Shown piece after piece: positions 28,886 through 34,136 of a stretch of DNA of 38,748 bases. Under the pieces are notes generated by a model that saw only the letters and a program-made list of their open reading frames with translations, ran no database searches and had not been told where the DNA came from. This stretch comes from Actinomycetes bacterium (lineage in GTDB: Bacteria > Actinomycetota > Acidimicrobiia > Acidimicrobiales > Ilumatobacteraceae): contig JANYDH010000214.1 of the NCBI GenBank assembly GCA_025359865.1, forward strand, positions 1-38,748, in the 5' to 3' direction. The translations under genes were made by a program, and so were the position numbers. How positions within the stretch are numbered: position 1 is the first letter of the stretch; each line of letters begins with the position of its first letter.

Positions 28886-29290
28886 TCAGCTGGAGACCAC
28901 GTCGAAGCCGAGGGAGAGGGCGACGGGGATCTGGCCGGGGTCGAAGGTGACGAACCGGACCGGGCGGGGGAGTCGGTCGGCGGCGGCGAGGTGCAGCGCG
29001 TCGCTGAGCCGGAGCGGCTGGTCGCGCATCAGCGCGGTCGCACGGTCGATGCAGCGCTGGTCGACGGGCACGATCGCGAGCCGGTCCCAGGTGAGCCGCA
29101 CCAGATCTTCCAGGTCGCCGCGTAACACGGCCTCCTCGACGACTCGGTCGACCAGCGCGAGTGCCTCCATCAACGTGAGGCCACTCGTGCACCAATCCGG
29201 CTCGGAGGCGAGCGCGGCGGAGACGATCGCGCGCGCAGGCACGTCCAGGTGGAGCGCCACCACCGCGCTTGCGTCGAGGTACAGCGTCAC
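28886..29290 (-). CDS. vapC: PIN-domain VapC toxin
   Basis: 134-aa PIN-domain RNase. Acidic residues: D in 'LYLDASAVV', E in 'LTLMEALAL', D in 'RLSDALHLAAA' and D in 'FVTFDPGQ'. It starts at GTG 29290, which overlaps the antitoxin stop (GTGA, 29287-29290). The C-terminal 'FVTFDPGQIPVALSLGFDVV' is typical of VapC of Phd/Xre-linked pairs. Confidence 0.9.
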   Translation of the reverse strand: MTLYLDASAVVALHLDVPARAIVSAALASEPDWCTSGLTLMEALALVDRVVEEAVLRGDLEDLVRLTWDRLAIVPVDQRCIDRATALMRDQPLRLSDALHLAAADRLPRPVRFVTFDPGQIPVALSLGFDVVSS

Positions 29291-29568
29291 CCGCGGATCT
29301 CGCGCAGCAGTCGGTCGAGGCGGACCGTGCCCCACACCTGCACCGTGTGGGGCGATACGTGCCCATCGGTGCGGCGCGGCGGGAGCACCGCACCCGATGC
29401 CACGAGCGCGGCAAGGTCGGGCGCCCCAGCAGAAGACGTCGGATCCACCGGACCGAGTTGCGCGGCGGGCCGGCCGTTGACGGTGATCACCGTCGTCTCG
29501 CCGATCGACGCACGGCGGATGCGAGCCGCCAGATCGGTACGCAATTCACGGATCCCGAGTTCCGGCAT
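29287..29568 (-). CDS. Phd/YefM-family antitoxin
   Basis: 93-aa antitoxin. 'MPELGIRELRTDLAARIRRA' followed by 'GETTVITVNGRPAAQLGPV' is the Phd/YefM DNA-binding fold; the C-terminus is the toxin-binding tail. ATG 29568 is chosen over ATG 29571 because TACACT ends 6 nt upstream. It is coupled to VapC. The promoter sits within two operator-like direct repeats, consistent with the autorepression known for the family. Confidence 0.88.
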   Translation of the reverse strand: MPELGIRELRTDLAARIRRASIGETTVITVNGRPAAQLGPVDPTSSAGAPDLAALVASGAVLPPRRTDGHVSPHTVQVWGTVRLDRLLREIRG

Positions 29569-29574
29569 CATTGC

Positions 29575-29592
29575 AGTGTACAGAAGTGTACA
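29575..29592 (-). promoter_or_regulatory. operator direct repeats over the -10 box of the phd-vapC pair
   Basis: AGTGTACA occurs at 29575-29582 and 29585-29592, exactly 10 bp apart (one helical turn), each containing the palindrome TGTACA. On the minus strand the first repeat includes TACACT (29580-29575), the leaderless -10 box. Binding of the antitoxin here would block the promoter. The divergent acyl-CoA dehydrogenase starts 48 bp away and could be affected. Confidence 0.6.
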
Positions 29593-29639
29593 CACGCGTA
29601 CGCATTCCGACTGGCGCAAACCGGCCCGGAGGCGACACC

Positions 29640-32376: not shown

Positions 32377-32835
32377 GTGGAGCTGGTCACGTGGGTGTTC
32401 ATCGCAGCAGCGGCCGTGGTGGTGTTCTTGATTGCGGCGATCGTGGTCGGCCGTGAGGCGCACCGGCTCGACGCGGTCTCACCCCGGTCGGTCTACATGA
32501 TCGATGAAGTGGTCGAGTTCGTCGCCGAATACCTCCCCACGGAATCGCAGGCACGGCTGACACCGGACGAGCTTGAGCAGCTTCTCACGTTCCACATGCG
32601 CTGGCTGCACGCCAAGGGCCTGCAGCCAACCAATGTGATCGACCGCCGTCAAGACATCGATGAGCTGGTGATCGTCGGTGAGGACACCGTGGTCGCCTAC
32701 CTGCTGGGCGAGGCCGAGCGGGTGGGCATCGACATCCTCGACGATGTCGATGTGGTCAACGTGGTCGAAGCGCACCTGGCCTACTTCCAGGCGATCGGTG
32801 CCGTCGGTCCGATGGCCGTCGATCTCGATCTGTAA
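32377..32835 (+). CDS. conserved hypothetical protein, one TM helix
   Basis: 152 aa. Residues 4-24 ('VTWVFIAAAAVVVFLIAAIVV') form an N-terminal membrane helix. The cytoplasmic remainder is acidic and helical: 'SVYMIDEVVEFVAEYLPTES', 'RLTPDELEQLLTFHMRWLHA' and 'DTVVAYLLGEAERVGIDILD'. I recognise no named family. The ordered helices and clean leaderless start indicate a real gene. It precedes the candidate RNA at 32859-33096. Confidence 0.65.
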   Translation: MELVTWVFIAAAAVVVFLIAAIVVGREAHRLDAVSPRSVYMIDEVVEFVAEYLPTESQARLTPDELEQLLTFHMRWLHAKGLQPTNVIDRRQDIDELVIVGEDTVVAYLLGEAERVGIDILDDVDVVNVVEAHLAYFQAIGAVGPMAVDLDL

Positions 32836-32912
32836 CCACGGCTGAAAATCACTGGCACGCGCTCCGACAGAGTGCTTGAATGAGCGCACCAGAGAGAGGA
32901 GGTGGTCCAATA

Positions 32913-32957
32913 GTGATAGCCAAATGTTGTGGGACACTGGAGGTGGTTGGCCGCTAG
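32913..32957 (+). CDS. 14-aa leader peptide with Cys-Cys
   Basis: GTG 32913 to TAG 32957 reads VIAKCCGTLEVVGR. The AGGAGGTG site is 8 nt upstream and is the best Shine-Dalgarno sequence in the window. Tandem Cys codons (TGT TGT) suggest cysteine-responsive translation, as reported for poly-Cys upstream ORFs in mycobacteria. No function is shown. Confidence 0.4.
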   Translation: MIAKCCGTLEVVGR

Positions 32958-33066
32958 GCCAGCACGCTGGACCGCCTGGCGAAATCCCCGCCAACCTCCG
33001 CTGCTCTTCCCGCCGAAACTCGTCCCATCGGCTTGATCCGGATGAGCAGTCTCGAATCAGCTTGCG

Positions 33067-33096
33067 CACCGGGGAGGTCACATGGCCTCCCCGGTG
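33067..33096 (+). terminator. perfect 11-bp GC hairpin
   Basis: CACCGGGGAGG and CCTCCCCGGTG flank the loop TCACATGG. It could end the candidate RNA before the leaderless gene at 33134. No U-tract is present. Confidence 0.6.
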
Positions 33097-33120
33097 TCGC
33101 GCCTGGGCTGCGTGCGCCGC

Positions 33121-33126
33121 TATCTT
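33121..33126 (+). promoter_or_regulatory. leaderless -10 box for the 74-aa protein gene
   Basis: TATCTT ends 7 nt before ATG 33134. Confidence 0.5.
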
Positions 33127-33133
33127 CACGGGC

Positions 33134-33358
33134 ATGCATCGGCCGACCCGTTTCGAGCACACCCGATTCCTCGGTGACAAGCGCACCCAACTCGTGTACG
33201 ACCTCGACACCTGGGACGACTCCGCCGTGATCGACGAGATCATCACCGCAGAGACCGGGTTGTGCTTCGGGCCCGATTCGCTGGCCGAGGCACGCAACCG
33301 CGGCTACATGCTCGCAGCGCCCGGGGTGCGCCGCCGTCATCGCAAGCCACGGGCGTGA
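33134..33358 (+). CDS. small conserved hypothetical protein
   Basis: 74 aa starting 'MHRPTRFEHTRFLGDKRTQL', with a middle acidic segment ('DLDTWDDSAVIDEIITAE') and a basic tail ('GVRRRHRKPRA'). The basic ends and acidic middle suggest nucleic acid or ribosome association, but no family is recognised. The leaderless box fixes the start; a longer in-frame extension to 32876 runs through the candidate RNA and was rejected. Confidence 0.65.
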   Translation: MHRPTRFEHTRFLGDKRTQLVYDLDTWDDSAVIDEIITAETGLCFGPDSLAEARNRGYMLAAPGVRRRHRKPRA

Positions 33359-33374
33359 CCACCGGCCCTCGGAG

Positions 33375-34136
33375 ATGATCTCCAACGGCGAGTTCGTCTC
33401 GGGCGGTTTGACACTGCCACGGTACTTCGCTCGCCCAGCGGGCCGACACGAGGTGCTCCCCGGGCTGATCCTGGTACACGGCTTCCCGATCGGCCCGCTC
33501 GACGCACGCCAGAGCGCACTGACGTTTCCCGAGCTGATCGACCGGATCGCGAACGAGCTGAGCTGGGCGGCGATGACGTTCACGTTTCGAGGATGCGGAA
33601 AGAGCCCCGGCGATTTTTCTTTGCAGGGCTGGGTGGACGATCTCCGCGCGGCGATCGACCATCTCATTGCCGAAGCGAATCCGCTCGGCATCTGGATCGT
33701 CGGCACCAACACGGGTGGCTCGATCGCGGCATGCGTTGCGGCCGATGATCCGCGGGTCAGAGGTGTTGCCTTACTCAGCTCGCGCGCCGACTTCGACGAC
33801 TGGGCCGCGCAACCGCGTCGCTTCTTGGAGCATGCTCGCGACATCGGAGCGATCCGCACCCCTGGGTTTCCGAAGGCGTTCGACGAATGGGCGCGAGAGC
33901 TACGCCGATTTCGACCAGAGGACGCGGCGCAACGGCTGGCCCCGCGACCGATGATGGTGATGCACGGCGACGATGACGAGAGCGTGCCAACGAGCGATGC
34001 CCGCCGTCTGGCCGAAGCTCACGGCAGCGCCGACCTGCGAGTGATCACCGGCGCCGGTCATCGTCTGCGCCACGACCCGCGTGCCGTGGCGGTGTTGATG
34101 GGCTGGCTCGATCGTCAGAAGTCGCTGTCCCAGTGA
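33375..34136 (+). CDS. alpha/beta hydrolase-fold protein lacking the Ser nucleophile
   Basis: 253-aa alpha/beta hydrolase. 'LILVHGFPIGP' is the oxyanion strand-loop, 'MTFTFRGCGKSPGDFSL' follows, and the C-terminal acid and His are in 'MHGDDDESVPTSDARR' and 'ITGAGHRLRHD'. The nucleophile elbow, normally G-x-S-x-G, reads 'VGTNTGGS', with Asn at the nucleophile position. It may be a non-catalytic or unusual member. It starts 16 nt after the preceding small gene, so possibly co-transcribed. Confidence 0.8.
   Translation: MISNGEFVSGGLTLPRYFARPAGRHEVLPGLILVHGFPIGPLDARQSALTFPELIDRIANELSWAAMTFTFRGCGKSPGDFSLQGWVDDLRAAIDHLIAEANPLGIWIVGTNTGGSIAACVAADDPRVRGVALLSSRADFDDWAAQPRRFLEHARDIGAIRTPGFPKAFDEWARELRRFRPEDAAQRLAPRPMMVMHGDDDESVPTSDARRLAEAHGSADLRVITGAGHRLRHDPRAVAVLMGWLDRQKSLSQ

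Follow-up and report, generated by a model that had tools for sequence, protein, structure and literature searches.

A divergent homologue of the Ms_IGR-5 RNA in an acidimicrobial genome, with a conserved micro-ORF whose translation may gate the RNA fold

The window, i.e., the whole stretch of 38,748 nucleotides that was analysed, harbors a small RNA upstream of a small gene without Pfam match, which is itself followed by an alpha/beta hydrolase gene. Elsewhere in the window, a PIN-like toxin gene (28886-29335, reverse strand) lies beside a PHD-like antitoxin gene (29287-29619, reverse strand), as recognised by eye, and we take this pair to be of the VapBC type. The elements of the RNA locus are listed below in order of position; for the pairings P1 to P4, the share of paired cells in the alignment of Acidimicrobiia-type RNAs is given.

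32876-32881, forward strand: -10-like hexamer TTGAAT of an inferred promoter, with T at the conserved -21 and -16 positions
32888-33096, forward strand: the RNA, about 209 nt, its ends inferred from the RF02471 match, a conserved A at -9 and the closing hairpin
32897-32909, forward strand: extended Shine-Dalgarno (SD) sequence AGGAGGTGGTCCA, complementary to the 16S 3' tail with one G-U
32900-32909, forward strand: 5' arm of P1, on the SD side (91.5% of cells paired)
32913-32957, forward strand: micro-ORF with GTG start, 14 codons and TAG stop, MIAKCCGTLEVVGR, its frame kept in relatives
32931-32935, forward strand: 5' arm of P3, GGGAC, in Gly-Thr codons (99.1% of cells paired)
32942-32951, forward strand: 5' arm of P2, in the last codons of the ORF (88.9% of cells paired)
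32968-32977, forward strand: 3' arm of P1, TGGACCGCCT, 16S-tail-like, in Acidimicrobiia-type RNAs
32978-32987, forward strand: conserved motif GGCGAAAUCC (GGCGAAUNCC in relatives), found by eye
32990-32999, forward strand: 3' arm of P2, found as an inverted repeat, including CCTCC (32995-32999)
33012-33032, forward strand: hairpin P4, 33012-33016 x 33028-33032 (83.1% of cells paired)
33022-33026, forward strand: 3' arm of P3, GTCCC, in the P4 loop, from covariation and RNAalifold
33067-33096, forward strand: closing hairpin, terminator-like without U-tract, arms 33067-33080/33083-33096
33134-33358, forward strand: downstream small gene MHRPTRFEHTRFLGDK..., context outside the RNA, no Pfam match

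The SD starts with an AGGAGG core (32897-32902) located 10 nt before the GTG, the inferred RNA start being 25 nt before it, and the micro-ORF contains tandem Cys codons (TGT TGT, 32925-32930). The original prediction was built on this strong SD and its 14-codon, tandem-Cys frame, to which it added an anti-SD pairing, a competing CCTCC and a terminal hairpin, and it proposed either a cysteine-linked attenuator or an independent RNA. The SD and the frame are present. The anti-SD pairing, which extends over 10 positions (32900-32909 x 32968-32977) with 90% complementarity, is also real, as is the terminal hairpin, whose arms are 14 nt long and 93% complementary. The CCTCC is there too, as part of another inverted repeat (32942-32951 x 32990-32999). 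The heptamer AGGAGGT occurs 6 times on the forward strand of the window, for a mean of 2.97 in shuffles, 3/100 of which reach 6. A search of the draft genome to which the window belongs did not retrieve the 16S tail pattern; with a shorter search pattern, the tail GGATCACCTCCTTT was detected in the genomes of 4/8 relatives.

A strict consensus scan of 32700-33400 retrieves no sigma-70-type promoter and no U-tract terminator. Among 64 Acidimicrobiia-type loci, 72% have a T at -21 relative to AGGAGG and 77% have one at -16. Ahead of the RNA, 93 other loci share a promoter-like pattern composed of an A-tract with T and TA positions, whose conservation is weaker in the 64 Acidimicrobiia-type ones. 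At the other end, a strong hairpin is present at a similar place in 66/66 Acidimicrobiia-type loci (median -32.5 kcal/mol; median 115 nt past the stop, in a search from +100 onwards, without a control for chance). Between the stop and the 3' arm of P2 lies GGCGAAUNCC; outside the ORF, no other motif is as constant. The segment 32888-33060, from which the terminal hairpin is excluded, has a z of -2.2, 5/200 shuffles being as good, and 32859-33103 folds better than shuffles with a z of -5.2. It is homology, and not folding energy, that shows that the window RNA exceeds chance.

This homology is with a known family of RNAs. The segment 32888-33057 matches the complete Rfam model RF02471 (Ms_IGR-5, positions 1-184) with 36.4 bits and an E-value of 7.3e-7 for 421 bases under permissive settings, below the gathering cut-off of 45 bits, and a search of the whole window identifies no Rfam family at its own cut-off. 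The full-length match is linked to the family through relatives that exceed the cut-off. RF02471 matches occur in 23/61 genomes, the window's own counted, of which 4 are above the cut-off, and in 70/396 genomes sampled from the phylum, of which 34 are above it. Since the window scores 36.4 bits and 4/61 genomes pass, the RNA is described here as a divergent homologue and not as an Rfam-called member; that it is a homologue of Ms_IGR-5 is, by comparison of sequences, almost certain, which supports the second option of the original prediction, that of an independent RNA.

A DNA search detects the RNA in 26/61 genomes, again with the window's own counted, and a sequence-only model (R1, 71 positions, trained on 48/81 listed rows of relatives) matches 146 of the same 396 phylum genomes. 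By DNA similarity only, matches are found in 0/15 genomes of up to 2.2 Mb, as compared to 26/46 larger ones; R1 matched two genomes of the class with sizes of 2.0 and 2.2 Mb. One genome, G276, contains two differing copies of the RNA (L286 and L296), each with an ORF; with a listed contamination of 7%, it may therefore be a mixed assembly.

The Ms_IGR-5 family is already known. According to published reports, the M. smegmatis transcript ncMSMEG15794c overlaps IGR-5, Ms_IGR-5 is scored 'yes' by RNA-seq in S. lividans and is a free-standing transcript in both these species as in S. avermitilis, and ribosome-protected reads lie on Ms_IGR-5 in M. abscessus and M. smegmatis; the authors of the latter work describe such non-coding RNAs as being without clear evidence of translation (PMC8079986, PMC4974804, PMC8780764, PMC10454040, PMC3828370, PMC5521070, PMC8388888, PMC11133741, PMC9094748, cited collectively). 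The open-licence literature yielded no study of what Ms_IGR-5 does or of whether it is coding, an absence that is weak evidence; nor were its coding nature, its peptide-free conservation, P3 or the start/spacing rule described below found there.

A short frame follows the extended SD in 89/89 distinct loci found with RF02471 (90 loci in all; the ORF was located by script in 87, and by eye in L221 and L080). It is likewise present in 72/72 distinct further loci, as compared to 25.9% when the variable stretch is shuffled, and in 60/72 with canonical starts only, as compared to 11.4% of shuffles, these controls ignoring relatedness. The further loci (77, of which 72 distinct) belong to genomes without an earlier RF02471 match; no R1 training row is among the 77, L253 is the same as L005, and they may overlap contigs of the pattern scan. 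Using a pattern that required no stop and no length modulo three, the stop falls at the same point in 153/153 distinct loci among the matches listed (128 TAG, 15 TGA, 10 TAA). An in-frame stop precedes the motif in 1/159 listed loci, versus 122 and 127 for the two alternative frames. The short frame and the alternative pairings of the original prediction are real and conserved in relatives.

The encoded peptide, in contrast, is not kept. At the tandem-Cys stretch, the commonest codon of the Acidimicrobiia-type set is AGT (Ser, 54), TGT being next (20), and any Cys is present in 57 of 142 distinct ORFs among the matches listed. It is the P2 and P3 arms that encode the recurrent C-terminus, and compensations in P3 alter the amino acids, from Gly to Val and from Thr to Ile or Met. 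Furthermore, the motif is read in a different frame in 4/89 RF02471 loci, in which the alignment indicates that one base is missing before the stop, and in 16/72 further loci. In these out-of-frame loci, the start and the stop stay, while the end of the peptide becomes, e.g., GGGSS. No other observation speaks as strongly for selection on the act of translating and not on its product. Val and Leu are depleted in the variable codons of 142 listed relatives, relatedness being uncorrected. Taken with the published ribosome footprints, the evolution of the ORF makes it very probable that it is translated.

The start codon and its distance to the SD appear to be coupled. With starts that are themselves inferred, the near-cognate codons CTG, ATT, ATC, ATA and ACG lie at most 9 nt after AGGAGG in 53/53 cases among the matches listed, in 34/34 of a second set, where a CTG at 10 would be equally good in L239, and in 12/12 of the further-loci set; ATG and GTG lie at least 10 nt from AGGAGG in all three sets, and TTG spans 7-12. 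The first two sets overlap, and the scripts favour a canonical start where both fit. Both kinds of start are encountered in 4/37 families, and the genus of the window itself combines a GTG at 10 (the window) with a CTG at 8 (L041, L050). We infer that initiation would be kept weak or moderate despite a very strong SD.

The pairings were analyzed in an alignment, A1, of 66/69 Acidimicrobiia-type loci, from which L017 (divergent past the stop), L175 (with a long insert) and L005 (with a different 3' part) were left out. Taken overall, the pairing values are reached by 0/500 shuffles, which ignore relatedness, and slid versions pair 25-46% of cells. In these 66 RNAs, both-side changes affect 5/5 pairs of P4, 3/5 pairs of P3 and 3/10 pairs of P2; P1 displays none (0/10) because its SD side hardly varies. 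The compensatory changes put forward as a check by the original prediction hence exist in P2 and P3, and not in the anti-SD helix. The 3' arm of P1 was not seen by eye in the Actinomycetia RNAs. RNAalifold predicts P3 unprompted; P1, P2 and P4 are missing from its prediction, with local hairpins there instead, pseudoknots being beyond it. A further candidate pairing, P5 (33001-33010 x 33040-33049), is present in the window, at a place where the alignment is poor, and was set aside.

P3 is also found in other classes. In 66 of 93 loci, retained after removal of short, Acidimicrobiia-type and >95%-alike sequences, its four core pairs are formed in 264/264 cells, as compared to a maximum of 138/330 for slid versions, with swaps to CGA[C/T]/GTCG (two) and GGAT/ATCC (five). 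Of 71 further loci, 48 have an exact complement to P3 downstream, for 15.0 expected from shuffles that ignore relatedness; it was not found in the other 23/71, mostly with other arms or another frame, and variants include 15 GTGAC/GTCAC and two GCGAC/GTCGC in the same hairpin context. P2 reaches 579/593 in other classes by our own count; when slid by 3 columns, it still pairs in 341/462 and 328/404 cells of the Actinomycetia set, which counts against it. The first helix of the Rfam structure (SD GGUCC x GGAC) is possible in most RNAs. By eye, its GGAC arm changes with the P4 loop and not with the SD in L014, L079 and L081, and we doubt that it would be a universal pairing.

The reading that we favor, with a probability of roughly 55%, is that ribosomes open the fold of the RNA as they translate a micro-ORF that is itself disposable, which would make the RNA a translation-gated switch. 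As its evolution supports, the extended SD leads into a micro-ORF of 10-19 codons, of which the start, the frame and the stop are kept and the peptide may change, and codons of its second half pair with downstream sequence in P2 and P3. The untranslated RNA would fold with P2 and P3, P1 also hiding the SD in Acidimicrobiia-type RNAs, and a ribosome initiating and reaching the stop would open P3 and P2. As both have to be opened by the ribosome, the RNA would be folded when untranslated and open when translated; with a moderate initiation rate, the state of the RNA would report how easily ribosomes start and move. As a putative output, the 3' strands, once freed, may base-pair with further RNAs, or the RNA may be more stable when translated. 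More speculatively, and with the odds somewhat against it, the RNA might be one that is licensed throughout the phylum by a content-disposable micro-ORF, the ribosome acting as a helicase that flips a pseudoknotted RNA, so that the RNA would read out translational capacity directly, and initiation being set weak by a trade between start quality and SD spacing.

Other explanations have to be weighed against this one. The match of AGGAGGTGGTCCA to the single-stranded 16S tail, which variants mostly keep (by eye), and starts that look weak for such a strong SD could suit a 30S decoy or sensor, in which 30S subunits are retained or counted by means of near-complete pairing with the 16S tail and the micro-ORF just lets ribosomes leave. 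This is conceivable but rather doubtful, as it explains neither why the stop position is constant nor why ORF codons take part in P2 and P3. The RNA could also act in cis as the leader of the small gene or the hydrolase downstream, with attenuation at the closing hairpin. Indeed, one of these two genes is located downstream on the same strand in 39/55 Acidimicrobiia-type loci (with >1300 nt downstream), a partial conservation that argues against a free-standing RNA, and 32974-32990 x 33070-33086, 71% complementary, is a window-level candidate that could compete with the hairpin. However, either gene is found in 1/79 loci of other classes, though the ORF and P3 are conserved there, and outside Acidimicrobiia the conserved downstream gene of a transcription attenuator is thus not observed. 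As examples seen by eye, an aminotransferase-like gene lies upstream of the RNA in Mycolicibacterium (L087), and in Cellulomonas (L095) the gene after it is methionine-aminopeptidase-like. With neighbours that vary between classes, the RNA looks free-standing, and a role as cis leader is unlikely.

A functional micropeptide is quite improbable. Its C-terminus has EV in 142/142 pattern-found ORFs among the matches listed, a constancy fixed by the search pattern, and Ser amounts to 30.1% of the variable part versus 10.4% in shuffles (14.0% in the largest of 200; 142 listed frames); yet the C-terminal codons are those of the P2 and P3 arms, and 20 loci possess unrelated ends (e.g., GGGSS) read in another frame. 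The enrichment in Ser, which involves both codon families (AGY 108, TCN 64), might instead point to an amino-acid attenuator for serine or for another residue that is not cysteine. We hold this to be very improbable, given that 33/142 listed frames, the window's included, lack Ser in their variable part and that there is no common downstream gene.

Cysteine attenuation, the first option of the original prediction, is rejected. Mycobacterial cysteine attenuators typically possess a conserved poly-Cys run, followed by a cysteine/sulfur operon. Canestrari et al. reportedly described, in 2020, poly-cysteine leaderless uORF attenuators in mycobacteria. What the window shares with these attenuators is an actinobacterial short ORF that contains Cys codons, and within its genus Cys-Cys recurs in L002 and a single Cys is found in L004. 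In contrast to them, its frame has a leader and an SD instead of being leaderless, the RNA has its own hairpin end, and neither the conserved poly-Cys run nor the cysteine operon is found. Tandem Cys occurs in 5/142 distinct ORFs among the matches listed, so the Cys pair whose conservation was at stake in that prediction is not conserved, and the genes that follow are, as had been correctly noted, not cysteine genes. A response to cysteine is therefore extremely improbable.

Although the family is catalogued as non-coding, its micro-ORF is remarkably uniform across many Actinobacteria, among them mycobacteria and streptomycetes. That the frame is kept and the peptide discarded suggests that the signal is translation itself, and the start/spacing rule provides a precise prediction that is testable in laboratory strains.

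Among known systems, Ms_IGR-5 is the closest: it shares with the window RNA homology over the whole model, the extended SD at the 5' end and the 3' hairpins. The window RNA differs by its SD-hiding P1 and its score below the cut-off. Whereas Ms_IGR-5 is filed as a non-coding sRNA, the relatives keep a translated-looking frame together with P3, a pairing absent from the printed Rfam structure line of RF02471. CC2171 (RF01867), an sRNA of Caulobacter, displays the same AAAGGAGGUGAUCCAGU-type start in its alignment; its match to the window is weak (14.4 bits for a cut-off of 75), it was found in 1/14 control genomes (Caulobacter vibrioides), and a search of the window's genome did not retrieve it. 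At its 5' end, this alphaproteobacterial RNA is likewise fully complementary to the 16S tail, and it may be analogous. Finally, a report on S. aureus describes small ORFs and leaders with extended SDs and non-canonical start codons (PMC13009471). These sites have all three traits, extended SD, non-canonical starts and small ORFs, in common with the present RNA, and those described differ from it in being mRNA initiation sites and leaders, in another phylum.
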